From Brevirhabdus sp. (GTDB lineage Bacteria > Pseudomonadota > Alphaproteobacteria > Rhodobacterales > Rhodobacteraceae): 64,000 nt of DNA. The stretch spans positions 310,001-374,000 of the forward strand of contig JAGXFH010000034.1 in the NCBI GenBank assembly GCA_024637315.1, given 5' to 3'. The notes below the pieces were generated by a model. That model saw only the letters and a program-made list of their open reading frames with translations, did not search any database and had not been told where the DNA came from. A program made the translations under genes and the position numbers. This document shows, in pieces, positions 3,991-34,300 of this stretch. Position 1 is the first letter of the stretch. Each line of letters begins with the position of its first letter.

Positions 3991-6340
<2,350 letters not shown>

Positions 6341-6344
<4 letters not shown>

Positions 6345-6634
6345 CCGTTGACCGCGAAAGCAAGACCGAGACGGAAACCATCGCGCGAAAGGCACAGCGG
6401 ATGGAAGAGGCGCGAAAACGCCATCGCGAGAGCGCCTGGTATGGCTTGGGCATGTTCGGGCTGGTGGGCTGGTCCGTCGCGGTGCCGGTCGTTGCGGGTA
6501 TAGCCCTGGGGCTATGGATCGACAGGCGCTGGCCGGGCGAAGTGTCGTGGACACTGACACTGCTGATCGCCGGCGCGATGCTCGGCGCACTCAATGCATG
6601 GTACTGGGTGCAGCGGGAGGGACGCGATGACTGA
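6341..6634 (+). CDS. atpQ: N-ATPase accessory membrane subunit AtpQ
   Basis: 97 residues: a charged N-terminus of about 35 residues, then two membrane helices (WYGLGMFGLVGWSVAVPVVAG and WTLTLLIAGAMLGALNAWYWV) separated by GLWIDRRWPG. This is the AtpI/AtpQ-like layout and the gene lies exactly where atpQ occurs in N-ATPase operons. The role is likely in assembly or ion supply of the Fo ring; that comes from the family and position, not from a catalytic motif. Confidence 0.85.
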
Positions 6635-6664
6635 GCGGGACCGACAGACGAACAGGGGCGCGCG

Positions 6665-6967
6665 ATGAGCGCGACCGCTTTCGTCCTGTTCGCCGGCGCG
6701 CTGGCAGGCGCTGTGATAGGCGGGCTCTATCTCGGCCTGCTCTGGGCAGCCGTGCGGCATCTGCCGCAGAACCGGGGGGGCGTGTTGGTCTTTGTCGGGC
6801 TTGCGCTGGCGCGGATGGTGTTGCTGCTGGGCGCATTGGCAGCGGCAGCCGCGCTGGCGGTGCCGGCGATGGGTCTTGTCGCCGCGCTGGCCGGCTTTGT
6901 CGTCGTGCGGCTCGCCGCGACGCGCCTGCTGGGGCGCGCAACGCAGGGAGATGACGCATGGAAATAA
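6665..6967 (+). CDS. atpR: N-ATPase accessory membrane subunit AtpR
   Basis: 100 residues with three predicted membrane helices and arginines inside or next to them (LARM in helix 2, RLAATR near the end of helix 3). AtpR proteins of N-ATPase operons are small, three-helix and carry such arginines, proposed to interact with the acidic residues of the c ring. The gene starts 30 nt after atpQ and its end overlaps the start of atpB by 10 nt. Confidence 0.85.
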   Translation: MSATAFVLFAGALAGAVIGGLYLGLLWAAVRHLPQNRGGVLVFVGLALARMVLLLGALAAAAALAVPAMGLVAALAGFVVVRLAATRLLGRATQGDDAWK

Positions 6968-7674
6968 GCCCCGACGCATGGGTTCTTTACGAATGGCAAG
7001 GCCTTCGGCTCAACGCCACCATCGTTTTCACCTGGGCGGTGATGGCGTTTCTTGTCCTTGGCTCCTGGGCGATCACGGCACGGCTGAGCGAAGGGGAAAC
7101 CGTTTCCCGCTGGCAGGTGATGCTGGAGGTGATCGTCGCGGCCATCCGTGACCAGATCGCCGAGGTCGGTGCCGACAGCCCCGGCCGCTACCTGCCCTTC
7201 ATCGGCACTCTCTTCCTGTTCATCGCCACGGCGAACGTGCTGGCTGTGGTGCCGGGCTACCAACCGCCCACCGGCTCACTCTCGACCACAGTTGCGCTGG
7301 CAATCTGCGTTCTGGTGGCCGTGCCTCTGTTTTCCATCGGCGAGCGCGGACTGGGCGGCTACCTGCGCACCTATCTGCAGCCAACCCCGCTGATGCTTCC
7401 ATTCAACCTGGTCGCCGAGGCGTCGCGCACCATTGCGCTGGCTGTCCGGCTTTACGGCAACGTGATGAGCGGGACGGTGATCGTCGGCATCCTGATTTCC
7501 GTGGCGCCCTTCTTCTTCCCGGTCGTGATGCAGGTTCTGGGCCTTTTGACCGGGCTGATCCAGGCCTACATCTTCGCCATCCTCGCGATGGTCTATATCG
7601 GGTCGGCCAGCCGGACCCGCCGCAGGACGGGCAATGCAACCGCGTCACAAGACATCACAGAAACAGGAGACTGA
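6958..7674 (+). CDS. atpB: N-ATPase Fo subunit a
   Basis: 238 residues, about five to six membrane helices. The essential arginine facing the c ring is R164 in IALAVRLYGNVMSG, and the last helix contains LIQAYIFAILAMVYI. Subunit a forms the ion half-channels of the Fo motor. The sequence overlaps atpR by 10 nt and is followed by subunit c after 2 nt. The polar C-terminal tail after residue 220 is short and probably cytoplasmic. Confidence 0.94.
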   Translation: MEISPDAWVLYEWQGLRLNATIVFTWAVMAFLVLGSWAITARLSEGETVSRWQVMLEVIVAAIRDQIAEVGADSPGRYLPFIGTLFLFIATANVLAVVPGYQPPTGSLSTTVALAICVLVAVPLFSIGERGLGGYLRTYLQPTPLMLPFNLVAEASRTIALAVRLYGNVMSGTVIVGILISVAPFFFPVVMQVLGLLTGLIQAYIFAILAMVYIGSASRTRRRTGNATASQDITETGD

Positions 7675-7676
7675 CC

Positions 7677-7967
7677 ATGGATGGAGCAACTTGGATTGCC
7701 GTTATCTCGATCTTTACCGCCGGACTGACCATCGCCATCGGCTCGATCGGCCCGGCCCTCGCCGAAGGGCGCGCCGCATCGCAGGCGCTGCAGGCCATCG
7801 CGCAGCAGCCCGATGCCGCAAATACGATCACCCGGACCCTGTTCGTCAGCCTCGCGATGATCGAATCTACAGCGATCTACTGCTTCGTGGTGGCGATGAT
7901 CCTGATCTTCGCCAACCCATTCACCAACCTCGCCGCTGAAACCGCCGCGCAGGCAGCCGGAGGCTGA
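7677..7967 (+). CDS. atpE: N-ATPase Fo subunit c, sodium-type ligands
   Basis: 96 residues, two membrane helices joined by the polar loop AQQPDAAN. The ion site residues line up with those of the Ilyobacter tartaricus sodium ring: E30 in PALAEG (in place of Q32), E63, S64, T65 and Y68 in MIESTAIY (E65, S66, T67, Y70). Two glutamates plus Ser, Thr and Tyr are the hallmark of the N-ATPase c subunit, so sodium translocation is the best prediction. A good AGGAG site precedes the ATG. Confidence 0.95.
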   Translation: MDGATWIAVISIFTAGLTIAIGSIGPALAEGRAASQALQAIAQQPDAANTITRTLFVSLAMIESTAIYCFVVAMILIFANPFTNLAAETAAQAAGG

Positions 7968-7971
7968 TGCC

Positions 7972-8766
7972 ATGCAGATCGACTGGCTGACCGTCGCGGC
8001 CCAGATCGTCAACTTCCTGGTCCTGGTGTGGCTGCTGCAACGGTTTCTCTACCGTCCAATCACCAACGCCATGGCCAGGCGCGAAGTACGGATCGAAAGC
8101 CGACTGGCCGAGGCGAAGGACGCGCGCGCAGAGGTCGAGGCAGAGGCAGAGCGACTGCGCGAGAAACGCGAAGAGACAGAGGCCAGCCGGGAAGAGATGC
8201 TGAGCGAGGCGCGGCAGGAGGCCGCCGACCTGCGCAAGGAATTGGAGGACGATCTTCGCAAGGCGATGGAGGCCCGGCGCAAGACATGGGAGGACCACCT
8301 GGAGGACGAGCGGGACGACTTCGCCGCCAGATTGCGGCAGCGCGCCGGCCATCAGGTAGTCGACATCGTCGGACGGGTGCTGAAGGATTACGCGGGCAGC
8401 GACCTCGCCGGCCAGGTGGCGGGCACCTTCGCGGACCGTCTGGCCGACCTGGACGATGGGGCACGCGACAAGCTGACGACCGCGGCCGAGCGCGCGGATG
8501 GCCCCGTCCGGGTGGAAAGCAGTCTTACGCTCAAGCCCGGTGCGCGCAGCAAGATCACCCGCGCGATCCACGAGTTCATCGCCCCGGATCTCGAGGTCGA
8601 GTATCAGGAAGATGACGACCTGCTGCTCGGGGTCCGGCTGACCATCGGCGAACAGACCGTCGAATGGTCCGCCACGCGGTTCCTGAGCCGTCTGGAAACG
8701 ACGCTCGACGAAGTGATCGAGGGCAGCGGCCGGCACCGCCCCGATCGCGCGGCGTCCTCCGGCTGA
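7972..8766 (+). CDS. atpF: N-ATPase subunit b with delta-like C-terminal extension
   Basis: 264 residues, far longer than a usual b subunit of about 160. A single membrane helix (residues 8-26) is followed by a long charged coiled coil from about 35 to 130. From about residue 180 the protein changes character: KPGARSKITRAIHEFI, then DDDLLLGVRLTIG and a final helix WSATRFLSRLETTL. This strand-helix pattern resembles the C-terminal domain of subunit delta, which has no gene of its own in the operon. The protein probably supplies both the stator stalk and its attachment to F1. Confidence 0.88.
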   Translation: MQIDWLTVAAQIVNFLVLVWLLQRFLYRPITNAMARREVRIESRLAEAKDARAEVEAEAERLREKREETEASREEMLSEARQEAADLRKELEDDLRKAMEARRKTWEDHLEDERDDFAARLRQRAGHQVVDIVGRVLKDYAGSDLAGQVAGTFADRLADLDDGARDKLTTAAERADGPVRVESSLTLKPGARSKITRAIHEFIAPDLEVEYQEDDDLLLGVRLTIGEQTVEWSATRFLSRLETTLDEVIEGSGRHRPDRAASSG

Positions 8767-8778
8767 GGTGCGCGTGTC

Positions 8779-10314
8779 ATGACCTTCGATGATCTGTACG
8801 ACGATCTCTTCGCGCCGCTTGAGGACGCGCTGAAAAGGGTTGGCTCGGTAATGGAGACGGCAGAGATCGCGCGCATCCTGTCTGTGGGCAATGGCGTGGC
8901 CGAGGTCGCGGGCTTTACCGACCTGCACGCGGACGAATTGCTGATCTTCTCGGGCGGCGTGATGGGGATCGCCTCGAACCTCAGCGAGGATCGCGCGGGT
9001 GTCATCGTCCTGGGCGAGACCGAGCGCCTTCGGCCGGGTGATCCGGTGCGCCGCACGGGCCGCGTTGTCGATGTGCCGGTCGGCACAGGTCTGATCGGAC
9101 GGGTGGTGGATGCGCTTGGCCGCCCGCTGGATGGAGGAGATCCCATCGAGGCGGAGGATCTCCTGCCCATAGAGCAGCCCGCGCCGCCGATCATGCACCG
9201 CGCGCCGGTACAAGTGCCGCTGCAAACCGGGATAAAGGCCGTGGATGCCGCCGTTCCCATCGGCCGCGGGCAGCGCGAACTAATCCTTGGCGACCGGCAA
9301 ACCGGAAAGACCGCCATCGCCGTCGATACGATCCTCAACCAGCGGGACAGCGGCGTTCTGTCGATCTACTGCGCCATCGGCCAGCGCGCCTCGGCGGTGG
9401 CGCGGGTGATCCAGAGTCTGCGCGAGGCCGGCGCGTTGGACCGCACCATCGTTGTCGTGGCCAGCGGCGAGGATGCGCCAGGGCTGCAATTCGTCGCCCC
9501 CTACGCCGCAACTTCGATGGCCGAGCACTTCATGGCCGAAGGGCGTGACGTGCTGATCGTCTACGACGACCTGACGCGCCACGCCCGCGCCTACCGCGAA
9601 TTGTCGCTCCTGCTGCGCCGCCCGCCGGGGCGCGAGGCCTATCCCGGCGACATCTTCTACATCCATTCCCGCCTGCTGGAACGCGCGACGCAGCTGCGCG
9701 AAGAACATGGCGGCGGCTCGCTGACCGCGCTGCCGGTGGTCGAGACGCAGGCGCAGAACATATCGGCCTACATTCCCACGAACCTGATCTCGATTACCGA
9801 CGGGCAGATCTATCTCTCGCCCTCGCTGTTCGAGAAGGGGCACCTGCCGGCCATTGACATCGGAACCTCGGTCAGCCGCGTCGGCGGCAAGGTGCAGCTG
9901 CCCGCCTTCCGAGCTGTCGCGGGAAATCTGCGGCTGATGTATGCGCAGTTCGAGGAGTTGGAGACCTTCGCCCGTTTCGGCACACAGCTCGATTCTGAAA
10001 CACGGCGCAAGCTGACCCGAGGACTGCGGGTCCGCGAGGTGCTCAAGCAGCACGAGCATGACCACATTGACGTCCCCGAGCAGATCGCCGCGCTGCTGGC
10101 GGCGACGGAAGGACTATTCGACGAGCTGGAGCCTGACGGTGTGGTCGAAGCCGAACGGACGGTGCGCAAGGCCGTGTGTGCGCAGGTCCCTGATATCTGC
10201 GACCGGATTGCGGCGGGCGAAGAGCTGAACGACGAGGACCGCAAGACGCTGATCGAGGCTATGCGCGGCGCGCTGTCCGACGCGCAAACGGAGGCGGAGA
10301 ATGGACACGCTTGA
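8779..10314 (+). CDS. atpA: N-ATPase F1 subunit alpha
   Basis: 511 residues. Walker A GDRQTGKT at 171-178, then the adenine-nucleotide site stretch [14 protein letters not shown], and [30 protein letters not shown], which holds the alpha signature. This is the regulatory nucleotide-binding subunit of the F1 head. It starts 12 nt after atpF, and its last 14 nt overlap the start of atpG. Confidence 0.95.
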
Positions 10315-11179
10315 AAGCCTCTCCGACGCGCTTGAGACCACGGGCGACATCCAGTCGATCGTGCGCACGATGAAGGCGCTGTCGTCGGTGAGTATCCGGC
10401 AATACGAACACGCTGAATCGGCGATGGCTGATTATGCCCGCACCGTCGAACTGGGTTTGATGGCGGTTTTGCACCAGCGGCGGGCCGCAGGTCTGGCATT
10501 GCCGGGGACCGACAGGGCAAGCGGGCGCGAGGCGTTGATCGTGATCGGCTCGGACCGGGGACTTTGCGGGGGGTACAACGACAAGATCACCCGCTTTGCC
10601 CGATCCCGGATGGACAGCCGACCGATCATGCTGGGCGTCATCGGAGCGCGTGTCGCAGCCCGTCTCGCGGCGGACGGGCGACGTTTGGATGCCGTTCATT
10701 CCCTGCCGGGCTCGGTCGAGGGAGTGACCAGACTGGTTCAGTCCGTGATCGTGGATATCGACCGCTGGACGCGGATCGAAGGGGTCGGGCAGGTCTGGCT
10801 TGTACACAACCGCCGCGAGGGCCGCATCACGGCAAAGCCGCAGTCGCACCGGCTGCTGCCGCTGCCGGACAGCTATCTGCAAAAGCTGTCCGAGGCAGAC
10901 TGGCCGGGGCGGTCCCTGCCGCTCTTGCGAATGGATTCCGGCCGGTTGATGTCCTGGCTCGTGCAGCAGCGACTGTTCGTGGTGATCTATCGCGCCCTGG
11001 CCGAGGCGCTGGCAAGCGAACACGCGTCCCGGCTGGCCGCCATGCAGGCCGCCGAGCGCAACATAGAAGAACGGCGCGACGATCTCCGCCAGCGTTACCG
11101 GCAACGGCGGCAAGAAACGATCACCCGCGAAATGCTGGATGTGGTGTCGGGGTACGAGGCCGTCAGCGGGGCCGACTGA
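10301..11179 (+). CDS. atpG: N-ATPase F1 subunit gamma
   Basis: 292 residues. N-terminal helix [33 protein letters not shown] and C-terminal helix from [21 protein letters not shown] form the rotating coiled coil; [14 protein letters not shown] in the centre is a conserved gamma motif. It is the last gene of the operon. No delta gene follows, in keeping with N-ATPase operons. The C-terminus has more charged residues than the housekeeping form. Confidence 0.92.
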
Positions 11180-11291: not shown

Positions 11292-12303
11292 TCATTGACG
11301 GCTGACGCCAGGTATCGTGGCGGCACGACCGTTGCGCGCATCCGAATTCGCGAGGATTGCGCGAAGGTATGTGGCGTATAGCCGGTCGACGCCGTCACGG
11401 TTCAGGTGATCTGTGTCGAAATAAAGGGCCGGGTCGTCCAGCGCGCCTGCGAGGTCGTGAAAGATCACCCCCCGCGACGCCATCAAGGCGCGCAATTCGG
11501 CCAGAAGGTCTTCGCTTGGCGGCAGAGCCTCGCGAAAATGCGCGGGCAACGGAAGGCGCATCGCGACAACTTCGCTGCCCGCCTCCCGCAACTCGTCGAT
11601 CATGCTGGCGAATGCGTCGATCGCTGGACGCGATTGCGCCATGCCGCTGCCATCGGGATAAAGATACTCTGTGCGGCTTGCCACTGCATGGCGGGAGGGC
11701 CGCGCCGCGCGGTCGAAGGCGGCCGCGCCCTCCCACCCCCCCGGGATCGAAGCGGCGCGGGTTGTTCAATTTGGAAAATAGCGTCAGGTAATCGAGAAGC
11801 GCGCGGGCATCGACACCGTCGCTCACGACCATCGCCGCCATCAGCCGCGCGGTCGAGGGGCGCAGCGGCGTGGTGCGCAGCAGGCCGCGATCCTCCACGC
11901 GGTCCGCGTTCCACGCGCGCGACTGGAAGGTGAAGGGATCAAGGATCCAGAGCACTCGCCGTGGTCGCAGATCCCGCAGGGCCTGCCGCGCAACGAAGCC
12001 GGCATAGACGGGTCCCGCACCGGGCTCGGCCAGCACCAGCATCGTCTCGCCCGTCGCCGCCGCATGGCGCGCGGGCACGTCGCCATAGGCCAGCGGCAAG
12101 GCATGCGAGGCGCCAAGCACGATCCAGTCAACCTCGCTTCCTCGTGCGGCGAGGATCTTCTGGAACGCGCTGTCTGCGCCGCCGCGCCCGACACGGAACT
12201 CCGCAATCGCCGCAAGCGCAGCGTAGAGCGCGAGGAAAAGAGCCAGGAAAAACGCCGCCCCGCGCCATCCTGCGTCCCCCTCGGTTGTTGCATCGGTTGC
12301 CAT
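11292..12303 (-). pseudogene. SGNH/AlgJ-like acyltransferase partner, frameshifted
   Basis: Two frames together make one protein of about 336 residues. The N-terminal part (from ATG 12303) has a membrane helix (AAFFLALFLALYAALAAIA) and the block I motif VLGASHALPLA with the likely nucleophile serine. The C-terminal part, in another frame, ends with YFDTDHLNRDGVDRL, which holds the Asp-His pair of SGNH hydrolases. The break falls at a run of seven C at 11736-11742; six would restore one frame through DPGGWEGAAAF. Such proteins work outside the membrane with MBOAT acyltransferases in polysaccharide O-acetylation, and the MBOAT gene is 9 nt upstream. A sequencing error, a true pseudogene or phase variation are all possible. 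Confidence 0.75.
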
Positions 12304-12312
12304 ACCTGCCCC

Positions 12313-13743
12313 TCAGAACTGCATGTAGACAAAGGCTTCGCCCTGCCAGCGGCCGAGCAGAATCAGCGCAAGGCCGACGGAATACCACCCGGCCCAATGC
12401 AGCGGGCGCGGCGCGGCCATGATGCGGCCCCAAAGCGCAGGGCTTTCCTGCAAGGCCTCGATCAGCATCAGCCCCGCGATCAGCGCGAACAAGACTCCAT
12501 GTTCGGCCGTGAATGGATACTTGCCGACCAACGCGGGCATATCTGGCAGCGCGGCACCTATTCGAAGCAGTATGGTGATCGCGTCCCCGACCTCTCCAGC
12601 CCGGAAAAACACCCAGCTGACCAATACGAGGTGAAAGACCAGCAGACCGGCGAGGATGGCATGGACCCTTCCTTTCCAGGTCCCCTGCCAGTGCCGGTCC
12701 ACTTGCCGTCGCCACGGACGCAGGCCGCGTTCGCCCCAGATATAAAGGCCGTTCAACCCGGCCCAAGCGACGAACCCCCAGCCGAAGCCATAGCCGAGCC
12801 CGGCGTGCCACAGCCCGCTGATCAGGAACACCAGCATCAGTCCGAGATACATGCGCAGTACTGAATCGCTTTCGTTCAGGAACGGGAGATAGACGTAGTC
12901 GCGGAACCATTCCGACAGCGAGATATGCCAGCGCCGCGCCCAGAATTCGCCGATGGAGGTGGCGAAATAGGCGCGGCGGAAGTTCTCGTGCAATTCGATG
13001 CCGAACAGCCGCGAACTGCCGCGTGCGATATCCGTGTAACCCGAGAAGTCGCAATAAATCTGGAAAGCGAAGGCATAGGTTGCCAGCACCAGCTCCATCG
13101 GCACGGCATAGTCGGGCATGGCATATGTCCGGTCCACGAAAGGCGCGAGGTTGTCTGCAACCACCACCTTCTTGACCAATCCCCAGAGGATGAGTTGCCC
13201 CGCCGAGGCAAGCAGGCGCGGATCGAGGCGGGGGGGATTCCCTTGCTGGGCTGAAAACGGTTCGATACGCTCGATCGGCCCGGCGAGTATCTTGGGAAAC
13301 CAGACGAGGAACAGCAGGTCTTGCCCGGCGCTCGCGCGGCTGTCGCGCGGCTGCCGGTAGCGGTCGGCCAGAAGCGCGATGGCCGTGAATGCGTAGAAGG
13401 AAAACCCTGCCGGCGCCTCGACCCCGATCAGTGGCAGGGACGGCAAAGCCCCGGCCACCGGATCATGGTATTTCAATGCATACATCAGCCCCAGGATCGC
13501 AGCCGTCCCGCCCCAGAAGGCCAGATGCCGAAACCCGGCCTCCGGCCGCAGCAGCCAGCGCCCGGCGGTCAGTGCGATCACCGCCACCGCGCCAAGCGCC
13601 AGAAGATTGCTTGCGCCATAGCTTGCGTAGAACAGCAGGCTTGCGGTCAGGATGACCGGCAGCCGCGCGGTGGCAGGCACCAGACGGAACAGGATCGCGA
13701 CAACGGGCAGAAACAGCAGGTAGTCGAGCGAATTGAACAGCAT
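12313..13743 (-). CDS. MBOAT family O-acyltransferase (AlgI-like)
   Basis: 476 residues, about ten to twelve membrane helices. The conserved core includes FPKILAGPIERI, FAFQIYCDFSGYTDIARG, FWARRWHISLSEWFRDYVYLP (His 273) and SGLWHAG (His 313, the expected catalytic histidine). Enzymes of this kind move acetyl groups across the inner membrane for O-acetylation of extracellular polysaccharide or other acceptors. It is followed after 9 nt by the SGNH-type partner and preceded after 16 nt by a CxxCH protein. No polysaccharide synthase is nearby, so the acceptor is unknown. Confidence 0.92.
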   Translation of the reverse strand: MLFNSLDYLLFLPVVAILFRLVPATARLPVILTASLLFYASYGASNLLALGAVAVIALTAGRWLLRPEAGFRHLAFWGGTAAILGLMYALKYHDPVAGALPSLPLIGVEAPAGFSFYAFTAIALLADRYRQPRDSRASAGQDLLFLVWFPKILAGPIERIEPFSAQQGNPPRLDPRLLASAGQLILWGLVKKVVVADNLAPFVDRTYAMPDYAVPMELVLATYAFAFQIYCDFSGYTDIARGSSRLFGIELHENFRRAYFATSIGEFWARRWHISLSEWFRDYVYLPFLNESDSVLRMYLGLMLVFLISGLWHAGLGYGFGWGFVAWAGLNGLYIWGERGLRPWRRQVDRHWQGTWKGRVHAILAGLLVFHLVLVSWVFFRAGEVGDAITILLRIGAALPDMPALVGKYPFTAEHGVLFALIAGLMLIEALQESPALWGRIMAAPRPLHWAGWYSVGLALILLGRWQGEAFVYMQF

Positions 13744-13759
13744 CGCCTGCCCTTTCCTG

Positions 13760-14281
13760 TCAGTAGGAAGCGCCCCCTGCCCTCAGCTCCCGCGGGATCT
13801 GGTCGATCGGGATGCCGGCATTCAGCACCAGATAATCGGCCAACTGGCCGCGCTCGGTCTCGGTCATCTTGATCTCGACATGGCTGGGCGAGTTCAGCGT
13901 GCCGAGCCAGGCCTCGCGGCTGCGGTCCTGCGTCACTGTCACCGTGATGATGTGGCAGGACTGGCAGAGCGCAAGCGCCAGATCGCGGCCGTCGCGGGGC
14001 AGTTCGCCCGCCGGATCGAGCGGGGCATAGCTGGCGAGATACTGCGCCAGCGTCGCGACATCCCACGCATCCAGCCCGGTTTCTGCCAGTTGGGTCTGCC
14101 AGTCCTCAACCGGCGCCTCCTGTGACGCAATGGCTTCTGACAGCGCGACCGGCATATCCCCGGCCCGCAGCCGCTCCAGGATCGTGCGTCCGCCATCGGG
14201 GATGAAATCGAAGAGTTCGTCCTGCGCCAGCGCGAGGCTGCCCAGGATGATGCAAGCGGAAGTCAGGGCAAATCGTCTCAT
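13760..14281 (-). CDS. small exported CxxCH (c-type heme) protein 1
   Basis: 173 residues with a signal peptide (cut after LALAQ). One heme-binding motif, CQSCH, lies near residue 108, and a methionine in HVEIKMTETER about 37 residues later could be the axial ligand. A good AAGGAGAG site precedes the ATG. The protein is clearly paralogous to the product of the next upstream gene: both begin with FDF-[IM]-P-x-GGR-x-IL, and both share the E-I-x-MTE-x-ER motif. Likely a periplasmic monoheme cytochrome c; its electron donor is not evident from sequence, but the E1-like enzyme of the same operon is a candidate. Confidence 0.78.
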   Translation of the reverse strand: MRRFALTSACIILGSLALAQDELFDFIPDGGRTILERLRAGDMPVALSEAIASQEAPVEDWQTQLAETGLDAWDVATLAQYLASYAPLDPAGELPRDGRDLALALCQSCHIITVTVTQDRSREAWLGTLNSPSHVEIKMTETERGQLADYLVLNAGIPIDQIPRELRAGGASY

Positions 14282-14305
14282 CGCATCTCTCTCCTTTTCG
14301 CGTGA

Positions 14306-14854
14306 TCAGAATCGCAGTTCGGGTGGGACATCCTGAATGGCCAGCGGCAGGTTGAGCGCCGAATAGCTGGCGAACGTGTCGCGTTCGATCTCGGTCATCG
14401 ATATCTCCGCGTGAAAGGGTGTCTTGAACGTGCCTTTCCAGCCAATTTCGTCACGGTCATGCGCCAGGTAGCCGGTAAAGAACGAATGACAGAACTGGCA
14501 TTGCTGGATCGCCAGTTCCTTGCCATCGGGCGGCAACAGGCCCGGATCGCCATTTTCGGAAAGCTGCGCAATCACGTCGCCTGAAAGTGGCAGGTTCAAT
14601 GCGGCATAGGCTGCGAAGGTTTCAATCTGCGTGTCGTCCAGATCCGGCGCCAGAGCGCGTGCCCAGTCGGCCCAGCCCACGCGGTCGTCCGCCCGCGCTG
14701 CAGCCTGGCCCAGCTTGCCGGGATCGCCTTCCGCCAGCGTGGCAAGGATATCCCGCCCCCCTGGCGGCATGAAATCAAAGGCATTCCCCTGGGCCAGTGC
14801 CGCCCCAGCCAGCAGTGCGGCGATGCATATCGCGATTCCGCGGCCCTCAACCAT
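14306..14854 (-). CDS. small exported CxxCH (c-type heme) protein 2
   Basis: 182 residues from the ATG at 14854; a frame open to 14896 would add 14 residues ahead of the signal peptide. The leader ends in GAALAQG. The heme motif is CQFCH and the possible Met ligand is in HAEISMTEIER. The N-terminal half (FDFMPPGGRDILATL, later YAALNLPL) and the C-terminal half (YSALNLPLAIQDVPPEL) share a short motif, which hints at an internal repeat. The start overlaps the end of the zinc-finger gene by 8 nt, so translation is probably coupled. Confidence 0.78.
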   Translation of the reverse strand: MVEGRGIAICIAALLAGAALAQGNAFDFMPPGGRDILATLAEGDPGKLGQAAARADDRVGWADWARALAPDLDDTQIETFAAYAALNLPLSGDVIAQLSENGDPGLLPPDGKELAIQQCQFCHSFFTGYLAHDRDEIGWKGTFKTPFHAEISMTEIERDTFASYSALNLPLAIQDVPPELRF

Positions 14855-15149
14855 CTCCGCTCGATCCCGGTTCAGGCAGGCGGAACACCTCGACATTCAT
14901 CTGTCGCGCCGCGCGACCTGCCGGAAAGCCGGTGCCGCGCAGCATGTCCAGACGGATCGCCGTCTCGTCGTCATAGAAGCGTTCGCCGCACCCCCGACAG
15001 ACCAGCGCGGGGATGTCCTCGACCACCACTAGGCGCTCTCCTTCCCAAAAGGCACTCTGGACAAGCATCTCTTCAAGGCCCGCCTTGCGACAGATCTGGC
15101 AGGCCGGTTTGTCCATGGTGTCTTGTACAACGACCTCAGAGGATTGCAC
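14847..15149 (-). CDS. YgiT/MqsA-type zinc finger protein
   Basis: 100 residues with two CxxC pairs, CQIC near residue 17 and CRGC near residue 52, followed by GERFYDDETAIRL. This is the YgiT-type zinc finger found in the N-terminus of MqsA antitoxins, but no HTH domain follows and no MqsR toxin is next to it. The GTG at 15149 has a GGAGG site 6 nt upstream; an ATG at 15116 lacks one. The gene overlaps the E1 beta gene by 14 nt and the second CxxCH gene by 8 nt, so it is an integral member of the operon, perhaps for assembly or metal handling. Confidence 0.8.
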   Translation of the reverse strand: MQSSEVVVQDTMDKPACQICRKAGLEEMLVQSAFWEGERLVVVEDIPALVCRGCGERFYDDETAIRLDMLRGTGFPAGRAARQMNVEVFRLPEPGSSGDG

Positions 15150-16104
15150 GGGCGGCCTCCACTACTTGCTGCGGTCCGGGGCGCATCCACAGGAACATCT
15201 CGGGCGATGCCGGCGGCGGCGCATCGGGAAAGGCCACACGTTTGACCTTGACGCCATCGACATTCTCGACCGCGCGAGCGATGACCTCGGCACCGGGACA
15301 GAGCGTGTAATAGGACTGGTCCACCGTCAGAAGGCGCTTGGTCTTGGCCACCGAATTGACGATGGTCTCGGTATCCATTTCCTTGAGCACACGCAGGTCG
15401 ATCACCTCGACGCTCGCGCCCTCGCCCGCCAGAGTTTCGGCGGCCTCCAGCGCCACAGGCATGCCTGCGCCGGAACTCACGATGGTCAGGTCGCTGCCTT
15501 CGATCCGTACCGCAGCCTTGTCGAGCGGCACTTCATAAGCCTCGTCCGGCACATCTTCGGTCAGGGTCCGCAGGCCGGCCGGATAGAGATAGACCACCGG
15601 ATCCGGCGAGCGGATCGCCGCATGCATCAGTCCCTTTGCATCGTAAGGCGTCGACGGGATCACCGTGCGGACGCCGGGAATGTGCATGTAGTAACTGTCC
15701 TCCTCGTAGCAGGAATGCTGACCGCCGAAGCCCGGCGTCTGGCCGGTCATCTCGATGATCCAAACGACAGGCATCGACGCCTTGCCGCCGGTCATGCTGC
15801 GCAGTTTGCCGGCGACGTTCTGGATCACCTCGAACGGCATGCAGGCGCCCTGATAGGGAATGTAGGTCGCCGATTTCGACCCGGCGAGCCCCGCGCCCAG
15901 CACCGCCGAGGCCATCCAGTTCTCGTCGATGCCGGTATTGACCACGCGCTTGCGGCCGAACTCGGTTTCCAGGTTGATGACCGGCCTGCCGGGATTCGAA
16001 GCGACCGGCGGGGTCAATTCGAAGATCCAGGTCATTGCCGGGTCTTCTTGCATTTCGTGCTGTACGGCCTCCAGCACCGAATACATCCAGCTTTTCATTG
16101 CCAT
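15136..16104 (-). CDS. TPP-dependent 2-oxoacid dehydrogenase E1 beta-like subunit
   Basis: 322 residues with the transketolase pyrimidine-binding domain and C-terminal transketolase domain of E1 beta proteins. The glutamate that activates TPP is E61 in TGIDENWMASAVLGAGLAG; GFGGQHSCYEED and PGVRTVIPSTPYDAKGL are also conserved. It has no export signal of its own. The alpha chain gene lies 30 nt upstream. A second in-frame ATG at 16098 has better spacing to its AAGGA site. No E2 or E3 component is encoded beside it, so it is unlikely to be part of an ordinary pyruvate dehydrogenase complex. Confidence 0.88.
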   Translation of the reverse strand: MAMKSWMYSVLEAVQHEMQEDPAMTWIFELTPPVASNPGRPVINLETEFGRKRVVNTGIDENWMASAVLGAGLAGSKSATYIPYQGACMPFEVIQNVAGKLRSMTGGKASMPVVWIIEMTGQTPGFGGQHSCYEEDSYYMHIPGVRTVIPSTPYDAKGLMHAAIRSPDPVVYLYPAGLRTLTEDVPDEAYEVPLDKAAVRIEGSDLTIVSSGAGMPVALEAAETLAGEGASVEVIDLRVLKEMDTETIVNSVAKTKRLLTVDQSYYTLCPGAEVIARAVENVDGVKVKRVAFPDAPPPASPEMFLWMRPGPQQVVEAARAIL

Positions 16105-16134
16105 CTGTCTGTCCTTTCGATCATGTGGGCTGCG

Positions 16135-17346
16135 TCAGCCGAATTGGCGCGCGGGTACGGTACCTTCAGCGAAGACGTGGCGCAGTCCGTCCTCGGGCGT
16201 GCAGAGCGGTTGCGAGAGCGCCCATTCGAAAGCGGCCTCGATCTCGGCCTTCACTTCGTCCTCGATCTCGGCGGCGCGGGCGGCGTCCATGACGCCCCAG
16301 TCCGCCAGGATCCTGCGGGAGATGTCCACCGGGTCGCGCTGCATCCATGCGCGCAATTCCTTCTCGGGGCGGAAATGCGTGATCGCCAGGGGATCGTAGC
16401 CGAACGCGCCAAGCTCTCCGACCTTGGCGCCGGGTGCGCCCCAATGGTTGTAGTAGCGATAGGTCTTGGCCTCGATGAAGGTGGGCCCATTACCCGCGCG
16501 GGCGCGATCCACTGCCCGTTTCGCAGCGTTGTAAACCTGAACCACGTCCTGTCCGTCCACAGTTTCGGCCGTGATGCCATAGGCCGCTGCCGCCGAGGCG
16601 ATATCCTCATGCGGACACGACAGCGAGTAATGTGCATATTGATGGTAGAGGTTGTTCTCGCAGACATAGATCAGCGGCAGGTCCAGCAACTTGGCGTTGT
16701 TCAGCGTCGAATGGAAATGCGGCGCGGCATAGTTGCCGTCGCCAGCGAAGACAACCGCCACCTGATCCGATCCGCGGGCACGGAAGGCGAAGGCCGAGCC
16801 GGAGGCGATCACTGGTGCGGGGCCGATCATGCCGTCTGCGCCAATAAAGCCGACATCGGGGTCGGAGATATGCATCTCTGCCCCATAGCCGCCATTCATG
16901 CCGGTGGCCCGAAAGTCCATCTCGGCCACCATCTTGGGGATGTCCACGCCCTTGGCGATGGCATGGCCCGACGGCCGGTGCGAGGAATAGACGAGGTCGA
17001 GCTGTTCGCGCGGACCAGAGTTCCGCAGGGCCGCGCAAACTCCGGTCGCGACTGCCTCCTGGCCTGCGTAGAAGTGGTTGTAGCCACGATAATCGGGGTT
17101 CGACAACATCTCGTCGGCCTGCCGCCGCTCGTGCCAGCGGATCTGCAGGATCGTGCGATACATGCCGATCAGGCTGTCATCGTCCAGATCGGCCGCAGCG
17201 AAGGGCACATCGGTAAATGCCGCGGCACTGCGCCCGACGGATATGGCAGCGCCCGAAGCGGCGGCGAGCATCAAGAAGCCCCGCCGCGCAGGCGACACCG
17301 GGGTGTCTTCGGTTTCCCACTGCGGGATCGTCCTGTCATGTTCCAT
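16135..17346 (-). CDS. TPP-dependent E1 alpha-like subunit with Tat-like leader
   Basis: 403 residues. The TPP motif runs from GDG at 202-204 to NN at 231-232, and the H-rich stretch SSHRPSGHAIAKG and the FYAGQEAVATGV motif are those of E1 alpha. Unusually, residues 20-44 read as a twin-arginine leader: ARRGFLML, a moderately hydrophobic stretch, then GRSAAAF. The ATG at 17346 has an excellent GGGAGGAA site, so the leader is part of the translated protein. If exported, the folded alpha-beta enzyme could leave through Tat with beta as passenger, and the CxxCH proteins of the operon could take its electrons. The substrate is unknown; pyruvate or another 2-oxoacid is likely. Confidence 0.88.
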   Translation of the reverse strand: MEHDRTIPQWETEDTPVSPARRGFLMLAAASGAAISVGRSAAAFTDVPFAAADLDDDSLIGMYRTILQIRWHERRQADEMLSNPDYRGYNHFYAGQEAVATGVCAALRNSGPREQLDLVYSSHRPSGHAIAKGVDIPKMVAEMDFRATGMNGGYGAEMHISDPDVGFIGADGMIGPAPVIASGSAFAFRARGSDQVAVVFAGDGNYAAPHFHSTLNNAKLLDLPLIYVCENNLYHQYAHYSLSCPHEDIASAAAAYGITAETVDGQDVVQVYNAAKRAVDRARAGNGPTFIEAKTYRYYNHWGAPGAKVGELGAFGYDPLAITHFRPEKELRAWMQRDPVDISRRILADWGVMDAARAAEIEDEVKAEIEAAFEWALSQPLCTPEDGLRHVFAEGTVPARQFG

Positions 17347-17497
17347 GAAATTCCTCCCAGTCTGACGCATGTCCGCGCTGTCCTCCGCCTGGCACCGCAG
17401 GCTCGACACATCAAAGTCTAGGGCAGGAGTCGCCGCCCTTCATTGACGGCGCGCAATCAGGCGATGCGAAGAGGCGCCAGGTCCAGCGGCCCTGGCA

Positions 17498-18196
17498 TCA
17501 AGCCGCAAGCCGCGCCATCCGCGCGAGCCGCTTTGGATCGGCGATCCGATAGCGCGCGCGCTGCAGCGGCTGGACTTCGCCGCGCGCGGCGAGCCAGGTC
17601 ATCGTCCGGCTGACCGTCTCGACCGTGGTGTCCGCCAGATCCGCCCAGTCGCTCCGGGGCAGGCAGATTTCGACGATCACGCTGCCATCCGGCTGGTCTT
17701 CGCTCAGCATGATCTGCGTTGATCGGACAATGAAATCGACAACCCGCTCGCGGCTGGTCAACTGGCCCCGACGCCAGATCAACTCCTGCGCACGCGAAAG
17801 CTGCTCGGTGATGTTGCGAACGATCTCGTGCCGCATCACGGGATCGGCTCGCATGCCCCGCTCGAATTCGGCGGCGTCGACCTGACACAGGTGCACTGGG
17901 GTGATGCTCTCTGCCATGTGGTCAAGCGGTCGTTCCAGCATGCCGCCGATCAGGTCACCCGATTGGGCAAGACCCAAACCGATCCGCCGACCTTCGTCAT
18001 TGAAGCGAACCAGCCGCATATATCCCTTGCGCAGCACGCCAACAGCTTGCGGGGGGTCGCCTTGGTGATAGACGGTGGCTCCACCCGGCAAGCGGCGATA
18101 CCGCAGGCGTGACCGGGTGCCAAGGCGGCAGCGGTGGCCTTGCCAAAGCGGGCACTCGACGCATTGCGGGTCCATAAAGGGGATCGTGTTGGCCAT
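17498..18196 (-). CDS. Crp/Fnr family regulator, FnrL-like with cysteine cluster
   Basis: 232 residues. N-terminal cysteines C12, C15 and C23 form CX2CX7C and a fourth, C104, lies in HLCQVD; this spacing is that of FnrL-type oxygen sensors that hold a 4Fe-4S cluster. A cyclic-nucleotide-binding fold is followed by a winged helix with TTVETVSRTMTWL, whose E-x-x-S-R contacts fit the TTGAT half-site. I prefer the ATG at 18196 to a TTG at 18208. It lies just upstream of the E1/CxxCH cluster on the same strand and may control it. Confidence 0.88.
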   Translation of the reverse strand: MANTIPFMDPQCVECPLWQGHRCRLGTRSRLRYRRLPGGATVYHQGDPPQAVGVLRKGYMRLVRFNDEGRRIGLGLAQSGDLIGGMLERPLDHMAESITPVHLCQVDAAEFERGMRADPVMRHEIVRNITEQLSRAQELIWRRGQLTSRERVVDFIVRSTQIMLSEDQPDGSVIVEICLPRSDWADLADTTVETVSRTMTWLAARGEVQPLQRARYRIADPKRLARMARLAA

Positions 18197-18229
18197 CCTG
18201 TTTCCCAACAGTGCGGAACATGCAAAGGC

Positions 18230-18742: not shown

Positions 18743-18868
18743 TCGGTCGCCGACAACTGCCCTGTGGGACGACTGGCGCCCGTCCTGATGAAAGCCCGGA
18801 TAGGCCTTGTCCGATGTCGATACCGTGCTAGGCTTTGCCCTGCCATGATGCGGGGGGCGGCGAGCGGA

Positions 18869-19663
18869 ATGGACAAGAGCTTGGATGACCGCGTCGGCGG
18901 TGACAGGAAGGTCACGTGCTTCGGACGGTCGGAATCGCTGCCCTTCCAGACGCTCTCTCCCGAATTGCTTGTCGCGCTCGGAGCCATCGGCCGTCCAAAG
19001 ACATTGGCCTGCGACGAGGTACTCGTAGCCGCGGGCGAGCAGCCCGGCATTGTGGGATTCGTCATGGACGGCGTGCTGCGGATGGAAAAGACGCTTATCG
19101 ACGGGCAGCGGCAGATCGTCGGCCTTCTGGTTGCGGGCGACATGTTCGGTCGGGTCTTCGATGGTGCCTTCCCCTTTTCGGTAGAGGCTGCGACAGAATG
19201 CGAAATCTGCAGTTTTCCCAAGACCCGGTTCGAAACCCTGCTGGAAGGCTCGCCCGAACTGGAGCGTGTCTTGCTTCTTAACCAGCTCAACGAGCTGGAC
19301 AGCGCGCGCGAATGGCTCGGGCTGCTTGCCAATCATCGCACCATCGACAAGGTGGCGGGCTTTCTGGTCTTCCTGCATCGCCGTTGGGCGCATCTGGCAG
19401 AAACACGCAAGCAACCCGAGCTTGGCACACTGATCGACCTGCCGATCAGCCGTCTTGATATGGCCGAAGCCCTCGGAACCCGGACCGAGGGGATCAGCCG
19501 CGCGTTTCATGCCCTGCAGGATCGGAAGCTCATCACGATCGTGACGCCCTACCGGTTCGTGATCCATGATTTCGACGAACTCGAACGCATGTCCGGGCTG
19601 AGCGAGAGCGAGAGCGAAATCGACGCCCGCGCGGCCATGCGGGCGGCCCATACGTTGCGCTGA
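18869..19663 (+). CDS. Crp/Fnr family regulator, FixK-like
   Basis: 264 residues. A cyclic-nucleotide-binding fold (PGIVGFVMDGVLRMEKTL, GLLVAGDMFGRVF) is followed by a long dimer helix and a winged helix with LDMAEALGTRTEGISRAFHAL. The E-x-x-S-R recognition residues are kept, so it should bind FNR/FixK-type boxes. It lacks the N-terminal cysteine cluster of the neighbouring FnrL-like protein. The ATG at 18869 is chosen over one at 18848 for spacing to a GGCGAG site; the choice is not certain. Confidence 0.85.
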   Translation: MDKSLDDRVGGDRKVTCFGRSESLPFQTLSPELLVALGAIGRPKTLACDEVLVAAGEQPGIVGFVMDGVLRMEKTLIDGQRQIVGLLVAGDMFGRVFDGAFPFSVEAATECEICSFPKTRFETLLEGSPELERVLLLNQLNELDSAREWLGLLANHRTIDKVAGFLVFLHRRWAHLAETRKQPELGTLIDLPISRLDMAEALGTRTEGISRAFHALQDRKLITIVTPYRFVIHDFDELERMSGLSESESEIDARAAMRAAHTLR

Positions 19664-32887: not shown

Positions 32888-34300
32888 TTAGTCCAGCGCA
32901 TCATGCCCGATCTTTTCGCAGTCTGAAAGATCAGAGCCGCCGGTGCCGGCAACTGCCTTTGAAAGATCGCGCAGGGCGTTGCGCAGACCTTCTTCCAGCA
33001 CCGGATGATAGAACGGCATGGCCAGCATGTCGGCGACCGTCATCTTTTGCTCTACCGCGAGGGCCAGCAGATGTGCCAGATGCTCGGCCGCGGGCAGGCA
33101 CATCTCGGCGCCCAGAACTCGTCCGGTTTCGGGGTCGGCATGGATGCGCAGCAGTCCGGCGGCGGTTTGCGCCATGCGGGCACGCGTCTGTTTCGAGAAA
33201 TCCGCGCTGCCCGAGGCGATCTTGCCATCGCGCAACTCTGACAGCGGCGGTCCCACCCGCGCCACCTGCGGCGAGGAAAACACGATCGACAGCGGCGTGC
33301 GCCGGCAAAGCCCGTCACCTTCGGCATCCGGTGCGGCCATGCGGCCCGCGATATGTCCTTCGTCGGCGGCCTCATGCATGAGCGGACGATAACCGTTGGC
33401 GTCGCCGGCAAGAAACACCGGCAGATCGGCGATGCGAAGGGACGCCGGATCGACCTCGGGCAGCCCATCCTCGTCGAGCGGCACATCAAGCGTGTCCAGT
33501 CCCAGATCGTCGATATTGGGCCGCCGCCCGATCGCGGCCAGTACCGCGTCGGCGATGAAACTGCCGCCTGCGCCGGTCACCCGGATCGCATCGCCCGCCG
33601 CTTCGAGTTCAGCGGCCGCGCCCATATAAAGCGCGACCTCGGCCTCGAGAAGTGGTCGGAACGCGGCCAGCACCTTGGCGTCGTCGATGCCCGCAAGCGC
33701 CTCGATCGCGTCGAAACCAGCCACCTCCAGCCCCAGCCGGGCCAGTGCCTGGGCGATCTCGACACCGATCGCTCCCATGCCGATCACCGCGATGCGGCGC
33801 GGCAGGTCCTTCTGTTCGAACACGCTGTCCGTGGTCAGGATCCGGTCGCCGAAATCGCGCCAGGGTTCTGGCACAACCGGACTGCTGCCGGGCGCGAGGA
33901 GGATGGCGCGCGCCTCGATCTCGTTATCGTTCACCTGCAGCCGTCCGGGCCCCAGCAGCCGGGCGCGGCCCGAAATGGCGCGCTTGCCCAGCTTGCCCGG
34001 CACCGCCTCCGGCCCCTCGACGAAACCGTCGCGCATCTTGCGCACCCGTGCGAGAACTGCCGGAATGTCGGCGCGCAAGCCGTCTGCGCCACGTATACCG
34101 AATGCGTCGAAACTGCCGCGCCGGTGAAATGCGTTGACAGCCTCGATCAGCGCCTTGGAAGGCATGCAGCCCACCGCGGCACAGGTCGTGCCCCAGTGCC
34201 CGGCATTGACCAGCAGGAAATCGTCGGTATAGCGGCGCACCTCACGCAATGCCGAAAGACCGGCGGTGCCCGCGCCGACAATGACGGTGTCGACCTTCAT
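32888..34300 (-). CDS. FAD-dependent pyridine nucleotide-disulfide oxidoreductase (Lpd-like)
   Basis: 470 residues. FAD-binding VIVGAGTAGLSA, redox pair C40 and C45 in GTTCAAVGCMPSK, NAD(P)-binding GMGAIGVEIA, and the C-terminal interface motif FYHPVLEEGL with its His-Glu pair. This is a dihydrolipoyl dehydrogenase / MerA-type enzyme. It has no E2 partner, so a role in redox balance is more likely than in a dehydrogenase complex. The stop of the cupin gene is 3 nt upstream. Confidence 0.9.
   Translation of the reverse strand: MKVDTVIVGAGTAGLSALREVRRYTDDFLLVNAGHWGTTCAAVGCMPSKALIEAVNAFHRRGSFDAFGIRGADGLRADIPAVLARVRKMRDGFVEGPEAVPGKLGKRAISGRARLLGPGRLQVNDNEIEARAILLAPGSSPVVPEPWRDFGDRILTTDSVFEQKDLPRRIAVIGMGAIGVEIAQALARLGLEVAGFDAIEALAGIDDAKVLAAFRPLLEAEVALYMGAAAELEAAGDAIRVTGAGGSFIADAVLAAIGRRPNIDDLGLDTLDVPLDEDGLPEVDPASLRIADLPVFLAGDANGYRPLMHEAADEGHIAGRMAAPDAEGDGLCRRTPLSIVFSSPQVARVGPPLSELRDGKIASGSADFSKQTRARMAQTAAGLLRIHADPETGRVLGAEMCLPAAEHLAHLLALAVEQKMTVADMLAMPFYHPVLEEGLRNALRDLSKAVAGTGGSDLSDCEKIGHDALD

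Follow-up and report, generated by a model that had tools for sequence, protein, structure and literature searches.

Gene content and layout of the locus

The window analysed here is a stretch of 64,000 nt from a Brevirhabdus sp. contig (JAGXFH010000034.1, positions 310,001 to 374,000), and the subject is a close-packed run of seven genes on its minus strand, at 11292-17346. In order of transcription these encode the alpha and beta chains of a thiamine diphosphate (ThDP) enzyme of the 2-oxoacid dehydrogenase E1 type, a YgiT-type zinc protein, two probable c-type cytochromes (1 and 2), an MBOAT O-acyltransferase and an SGNH protein. Intergenic gaps are 30 nt or less, and there are two overlaps (beta with the zinc protein, and the zinc protein with cytochrome 1), both contingent on the choice of start codons. 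Alpha, beta, the zinc protein and the MBOAT match their families clearly, the two cytochromes and the SGNH protein weakly. The features, in order of transcription, are:

17498-18208, minus strand: CRP/FNR-family regulator directly upstream of alpha, a possible regulator of the operon (PF00027 and PF13545)
17443-17456, minus strand: TTGCGCGCCGTCAA, a box resembling those of the FNR/CRP family, 110 bp upstream of the start of alpha (sequence)
17346-16135, minus strand: E1-alpha, E1_dh PF00676, 403 aa (Pfam, 172 bits)
17217-17346, minus strand: predicted twin-arginine translocation (Tat) signal peptide region of alpha, ...SPARRGFLMLAAASGAAISVGRSAAA (sequence; conserved R21, R22 and F24)
16104-15136, minus strand: E1-beta, Transket_pyr and Transketolase_C, leaderless (Pfam and PDB alignment)
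15149 (or 15116)-14847, minus strand: YgiT-type zinc-finger protein, about 90-100 aa, leaderless (TIGR03831, 45.1 bits)
14896 (or 14854)-14306, minus strand: probable c-type cytochrome 1, CQFCH, Sec-type signal (sequence and relatives)
14281-13760, minus strand: probable c-type cytochrome 2, CQSCH, Sec-type signal (sequence and relatives)
13743-12313, minus strand: MBOAT O-acyltransferase (PF03062, 89 bits)
12303-11292, minus strand: SGNH/DltD-like membrane-anchored acyltransferase, frameshifted (12303-11395 plus 11684-11292; intact relatives and a DltD-like model of the L033 relative)
11742-11736, minus strand: G7 homopolymer at the SGNH frame break (sequence; no G run there in relatives)

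An earlier annotation of this DNA (the original prediction) had described seven same-strand genes with these short gaps and two overlaps, and no E2 or E3 following E1, all of which holds. Its SGNH partner gene is present as well, but not as a single open frame, being broken at a G7 run that had been missed. None of the seven genes encodes an E2, an E3 or a lipoyl-domain protein, E2 not having been searched for across the rest of the genome. A dihydrolipoamide-dehydrogenase-like flavoprotein (E3-like, judged by its N-terminal sequence) is encoded 15 kb away, at 32888-34300, apparently unrelated to the operon.

Conservation of the seven-gene arrangement

Alpha was used as query against a collection of 84,980 species genomes, which yielded 54 loci, in alpha- and betaproteobacteria. 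Roseovarius marisflavi, Rhodosalinus halophilus and Ramlibacter lithotrophicus are examples of carriers in culture. All 43 of these with sufficient contig have the seven genes in identical order and strand, although in one of the 43 (L080) cytochrome 1 is apparently frameshifted. Because the order is fixed in 43 of 43 complete loci, the arrangement is not due to chance; it is a conserved functional unit. The original prediction would have been refuted by an absence of such co-occurrence in other genomes, and it withstands this check.

Of 298 genomes sampled from the family to which the window belongs, eight have a cytochrome pair, and the MBOAT subfamily (E ≤ 1e-60) occurs in precisely those eight and in one more, G784; it is thus confined to genomes bearing one of two versions of the operon. 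Outside the operons, the cytochromes have one weak family match in this sample, a SorB-like cytochrome whose gene follows one for a SorA-like protein. Other candidate occurrences were set aside: alpha matches of 40-44% in six other inspected genomes are ordinary E1s with neither leader nor insertion, and a remote cytochrome match in G128 is a chance one, as the region around it encodes biosynthetic functions and no cytochrome. In a plasmid collection, the alpha query found only ordinary E1s, at less than 60% identity, and the cytochrome 1 query had zero matches.

The second version is carried by G784 as a whole operon with the same gene order (L113:9084-14936). Its alpha is 41% identical to the window alpha, with a Tat leader of its own (SRRSFLQIAAGATGAA), and has a GAKPG-x2-GAFG-like insertion too; the zinc protein is 40% identical over 62 aa and the MBOAT 44%, and an SGNH gene is also present. 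The cytochromes are one-heme proteins, much shorter and barely recognisable (27% over 56 aa), with C-termini -AF and -SY. Since this version keeps the order, the arrangement has outlived a divergence so deep that hardly any likeness between the cytochromes is left. Neighbouring genes encode TRAP transporters, a flavin mononucleotide (FMN) 2-hydroxyacid dehydrogenase (LldD-like), a flavin adenine dinucleotide (FAD)-linked oxidase-like protein, aminotransferases and an ammonia-lyase-like enzyme, a setting that suggests substrates of the 2-oxo or 2-hydroxy acid type. An FNR-type box is absent from the region upstream.

Components and regulation

The alpha leader combines an RR motif, a hydrophobic stretch and an alanine-rich end. 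RR motif and hydrophobic stretch recur in all 52 alphas whose N-terminus is covered, TatC is encoded in the window's genome, and alpha is probably exported via Tat. Beta is leaderless throughout, beginning MAxKSW or similar, so that the original prediction was correct in giving a Tat-like leader to alpha and none to beta. ThDP is synthesised in the cytoplasm, and Tat would be a fitting route because it moves folded proteins. That leaderless partners can be exported alongside a Tat subunit is established for PaoABC (PMC4273604).

Alpha has the GDG...ENN ThDP motif, together with His91 and His301. PDB alignments equate beta Glu61 and His130 with Glu59beta and His128beta, and alpha His301 with His271alpha, of the Geobacillus pyruvate dehydrogenase (PDH) E1 (E1p), residues with described catalytic roles (PMC2663715); each of these equivalents is at least 95% conserved across the operon family. 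The best match of alpha to any solved E1 is a remote one (104 bits), and the curated PDH E1 cut-offs are not reached by alpha (TIGR03182, 223 vs. 394 bits) or beta (PRK09212, 183 vs. 321). Set against 20 ordinary E1s, the alpha chains form a separate clade with a long stem and support of 100/100, and the clade-specific residues lie around the active-site His and the insertion and after the ENN motif. The insertion, of about 14 residues (GAPGAKVGELGAFG), follows directly after active-site His301. Since ordinary E1s have their active-site-entrance loop where it sits, it is reasonable to infer that the partner has changed, and the missing E2 and E3 in the operon fit an enzyme whose electron acceptor is not lipoamide. 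Oxidation of the E1 enamine without lipoamide has in vitro precedent, because E1 by itself turns over with the artificial electron acceptor dichlorophenolindophenol (PMC2663715).

Cytochromes 1 and 2 are homologous, with one CxxCH and a Sec-type signal each. These features agree with the original prediction, and both CxxCH proteins are probably c-type cytochromes with a predicted covalent heme. The CxxCH motif is accompanied by a second His, after a conserved Trp, in 50 of 52 aligned rows for cytochrome 1 (where it is His162) and likewise in 50 of 52 for cytochrome 2 (His134), which makes bis-His heme ligation likely. Their extreme C-termini are nearly invariant, -RF in cytochrome 1 (14306-14314) and -[S/T]Y in cytochrome 2 (13760-13768); this seems unusual for periplasmic cytochromes, and the ends may form a docking tail. 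Among known domains, SorB comes nearest, along with the alpha subunit of quinohemoprotein amine dehydrogenase, but neither match approaches its cut-off; against the SorB family NF052246 (cut-off 93 bits) the two cytochromes score 11.9 and 13.3 bits. The structure predicted for cytochrome 2 consists of helices throughout, its tail being modelled with low confidence. The zinc protein matches TIGR03831 at 45.1 bits (cut-off 20.2), and the four Cys of its CxxC-x30-CxxC motif are invariant in 27 aligned sequences.

The window MBOAT has the catalytic WH motif (WH313) and an acyl-shuttle tail, FVYMQF, with Tyr473. Among 47 full-length relatives the WH motif is present in all, and a FxYxxF tail terminates 45. 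The SGNH protein of relatives is encoded in a single intact frame of about 320 aa with no G run at the site of the window's break; its membrane anchor, Ser and Asp-x-x-His are present in 25 aligned relatives, and DltD is the best match to a structure model of the L033 protein (E 2.3e-6). In the window the G7 run shifts the frame, so that 12303-11395 is without the catalytic Asp-His and 11684-11292 carries the remainder; the run may reflect a sequencing error, a recent mutation or a slippery site. To judge by its anatomy, the MBOAT/SGNH pair is a standard acyl relay. In PatA, the Tyr of FxYxxF is acetylated from cytoplasmic acetyl-CoA and the acetyl group is then passed to an SGNH partner (PMC12148441). 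Because this studied FxYxxF member uses cytoplasmic acetyl-CoA, the acyl group moved by the operon MBOAT need not come from E1, and the original prediction that the E1 product feeds O-acylation is not supported. A minority of loci (L036:5811-7835, L062, L034, L050 and L059) have genes for an AMP-ligase and a stand-alone acyl carrier protein, reminiscent of DltA/DltC, close to the operon. With the ligase in only about 9 of 54 loci, several of these with an acyl carrier protein, the two were rejected as a fixed DltA/DltC-like supply.

Upstream of alpha, the sequence TTG-N8-CAA is found at 50-140 bp in 32 of 52 loci, where 1.2 would be expected from random windows in the same loci, and the strict form TTGAY-N4-RTCAA is found within 250 bp in 23 of 51 (1.4 expected). 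The window's box, at -110, is beside a CRP/FNR-family gene. Two divergent regulators of this family stand beside the operon (17498-18208 and 18845-19663), and about a dozen loci have similar ones close by. Besides CRP/FNR regulators and the AMP-ligase, the neighbours over the loci include Hsp20, N-ATPase and universal stress proteins. In the window, 4559-11179 on the plus strand encodes what looks like a complete second F-type ATP synthase, of the N-ATPase kind and convergent with the operon, and N-ATPase genes adjoin the operon in L037, L043, L049 and L062 as well. NosZ (nitrous oxide reductase) is encoded in 16 of 34 operon genomes, as against 72 of 298 in the family; this higher frequency, uncorrected for phylogeny, is suggestive without being decisive. 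Nitrous oxide reductase was rejected as an obligate partner on the same count.

Proposed function and comparison with known systems

The reading preferred here, to which about an even chance is given, makes alpha and beta a ThDP-dependent 2-oxoacid oxidoreductase of the periplasm that has c-type cytochromes of its own, is induced when oxygen is low and is joined by a dedicated membrane acyl relay. Alpha and beta would fold with ThDP in the cytoplasm and be exported together on the alpha leader. In the periplasm the enzyme would decarboxylate a 2-oxoacid, and because no lipoyl protein is present there, the enamine would be oxidised by the two dedicated cytochromes (probably bis-His), with electrons presumably passing onward to the periplasmic cytochrome c pool and then to oxygen or nitrogen oxides. 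MBOAT and SGNH would form an acyl-tyrosine/acyl-serine relay across the membrane, most likely running outward from acyl-CoA, and the acceptor of the acyl group would be periplasmic and belong to the same pathway. A CRP/FNR-family regulator would switch expression, so that the module would probably be used at low oxygen. A periplasmic 2-oxoacid oxidase feeding c-type hemes had been put forward in the original prediction; the Tat leader, the cytochromes and the intact E1 residues speak for it, while its oxidase activity and substrate are still matters of prediction.

Several points weigh against this reading. Direct heme reduction has, to our knowledge, been reported for no ThDP E1. The cytochromes are under every curated family cut-off, and a PDB fold search with the cytochrome 2 model gave no significant match. 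Since NosZ is present in fewer than half of the operon genomes, no single nitrogen-oxide acceptor is required. The SGNH break in the window means either a sequencing error or that the acyl half is dispensable there. Finally, a rationale for coupling an oxidase to an acyltransferase is missing.

In an alternative reading, the oxidase with its cytochromes and an envelope O-acyltransferase would be two separate low-oxygen functions that share one operon, and nothing but its regulation, because both are required simultaneously. The FNR-type box upstream of alpha, the neighbouring CRP/FNR regulators, universal stress proteins, Hsp20 and N-ATPase, and distance correlations that are highest within pairs (MBOAT-SGNH 0.88, alpha-beta 0.84) are all as expected of such an arrangement. 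An exceptionless seven-gene set in two classes, however, exceeds what co-regulation usually preserves, and the diverged second version still has all seven genes in a catabolic-looking setting with no FNR-type box upstream; shared regulation alone is rated unlikely.

The strict co-occurrence of the two halves could also mean that they are chemically coupled, with E1 making an acyl group by oxidative decarboxylation, this group reaching the SGNH serine by way of a cytochrome tail or some small carrier, and MBOAT/SGNH taking the place of E2. This would be the original prediction in a strong form. The MBOAT might then move the acyl group inward to CoA, or the SGNH protein might put it on an envelope polymer. 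The operon is indeed without E2, and the invariant, flexible cytochrome C-termini (-AF and -SY in the G784 operon) could be docking or acyl-accepting tails. The source of acetyl in PatA (PMC12148441) speaks against this, as does the depth of E1 active sites, which are normally served by a swinging lipoyl arm. Coupled capture is accordingly rated as rather improbable. We also know of no MBOAT relay that runs in reverse, which counts further against it. The most far-reaching reading, in which lipoate-free extracytoplasmic 2-oxoacid oxidation by c-type hemes yields an acyl product that crosses the membrane via MBOAT/SGNH, as a transmembrane counterpart of the PDH complex, is speculative and improbable enough to be held very loosely.

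The distance of alpha from all solved E1s and from the PDH equivalog cut-offs leaves some room for non-oxidative ThDP chemistry, in which the exported enzyme would split or join carbon bonds (acyloin or sugar-type) and the cytochromes would oxidise another compound of the pathway. The active-site loop of alpha is replaced, and the clade has residues of its own around His235-Gln236 and Asn300-His301-Trp302, both of which could be read in this way. All residues named for catalysis by pyruvate E1p are present, however, and the second version adjoins 2-hydroxyacid dehydrogenase, aminotransferase and TRAP-transporter genes, which makes such chemistry a doubtful choice. That alpha and beta stay in the cytoplasm with the leader unused, leaving the cytochromes and acyltransferase alone in the envelope, deserves hardly any weight: export of alpha is a prediction from sequence, but all 52 relatives whose N-terminus is covered, and the second version as well, retain the RR motif, the hydrophobic stretch and the alanine-rich end.

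Standard teaching places ThDP 2-oxoacid chemistry in the cytoplasm or the mitochondrial matrix, with its electrons going to lipoamide, flavin or ferredoxin. If the preferred reading, an exported oxidoreductase with its own cytochromes, is true, proteobacteria of marine, saline and groundwater settings would carry out this chemistry in the periplasm, where it would feed straight into the cytochrome c branch of respiration. The unbroken link to MBOAT/SGNH raises the question of what is acylated, and why together with a periplasmic thiamine enzyme. The original prediction knew of no described system of this make-up, and none was found in the open-access literature or family databases, where a paper may have gone undetected.

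Parts of the operon do resemble known systems. The E1s of PDH and branched-chain 2-oxoacid dehydrogenases (alpha2beta2) share the two-chain ThDP fold and equivalent catalytic residues, whereas the operon alpha has a Tat leader, the insertion after the active-site His and a clade of its own, is 31-39% identical to ordinary E1 alphas (tblastn), and comes with no E2 or E3 gene. PoxB and pyruvate:ferredoxin oxidoreductase are ThDP enzymes that pass enamine electrons to a redox carrier without lipoamide; they belong to other ThDP subfamilies, however, and are cytoplasmic, with FAD or iron-sulfur clusters, and the operon has none of these parts. Another similar system is the SorAB sulfite:cytochrome c oxidoreductase, in which a Tat-exported catalytic chain has a dedicated small c-type cytochrome with a domain that the operon cytochromes distantly resemble. 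The operon differs in having a ThDP rather than a molybdenum enzyme, two cytochromes, and the invariant second His after a conserved Trp.

The likeness to MqsA/YgiT antitoxins is limited to the YgiT-type zinc domain (TIGR03831), the score for the helix-turn-helix antitoxin model falling short of the cut-off (TIGR03830, 18.6 vs. 61.8). No toxin partner was seen, the beta and cytochrome genes flanking the zinc gene in every complete locus, and with neither helix-turn-helix nor toxin gene an MqsA-type antitoxin identity was rejected. With PatAB and DltB-DltX-DltD the operon shares the MBOAT catalytic His and FxYxxF tail and an anchored SGNH protein with Ser and Asp-x-x-His and a DltD-nearest fold (PMC12148441), although the SGNH protein matches the Pfam SGNH, DltD and AlgX models weakly. 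What sets the operon pair apart from PatAB and the Dlt systems is its company, a putatively exported ThDP enzyme and cytochromes.

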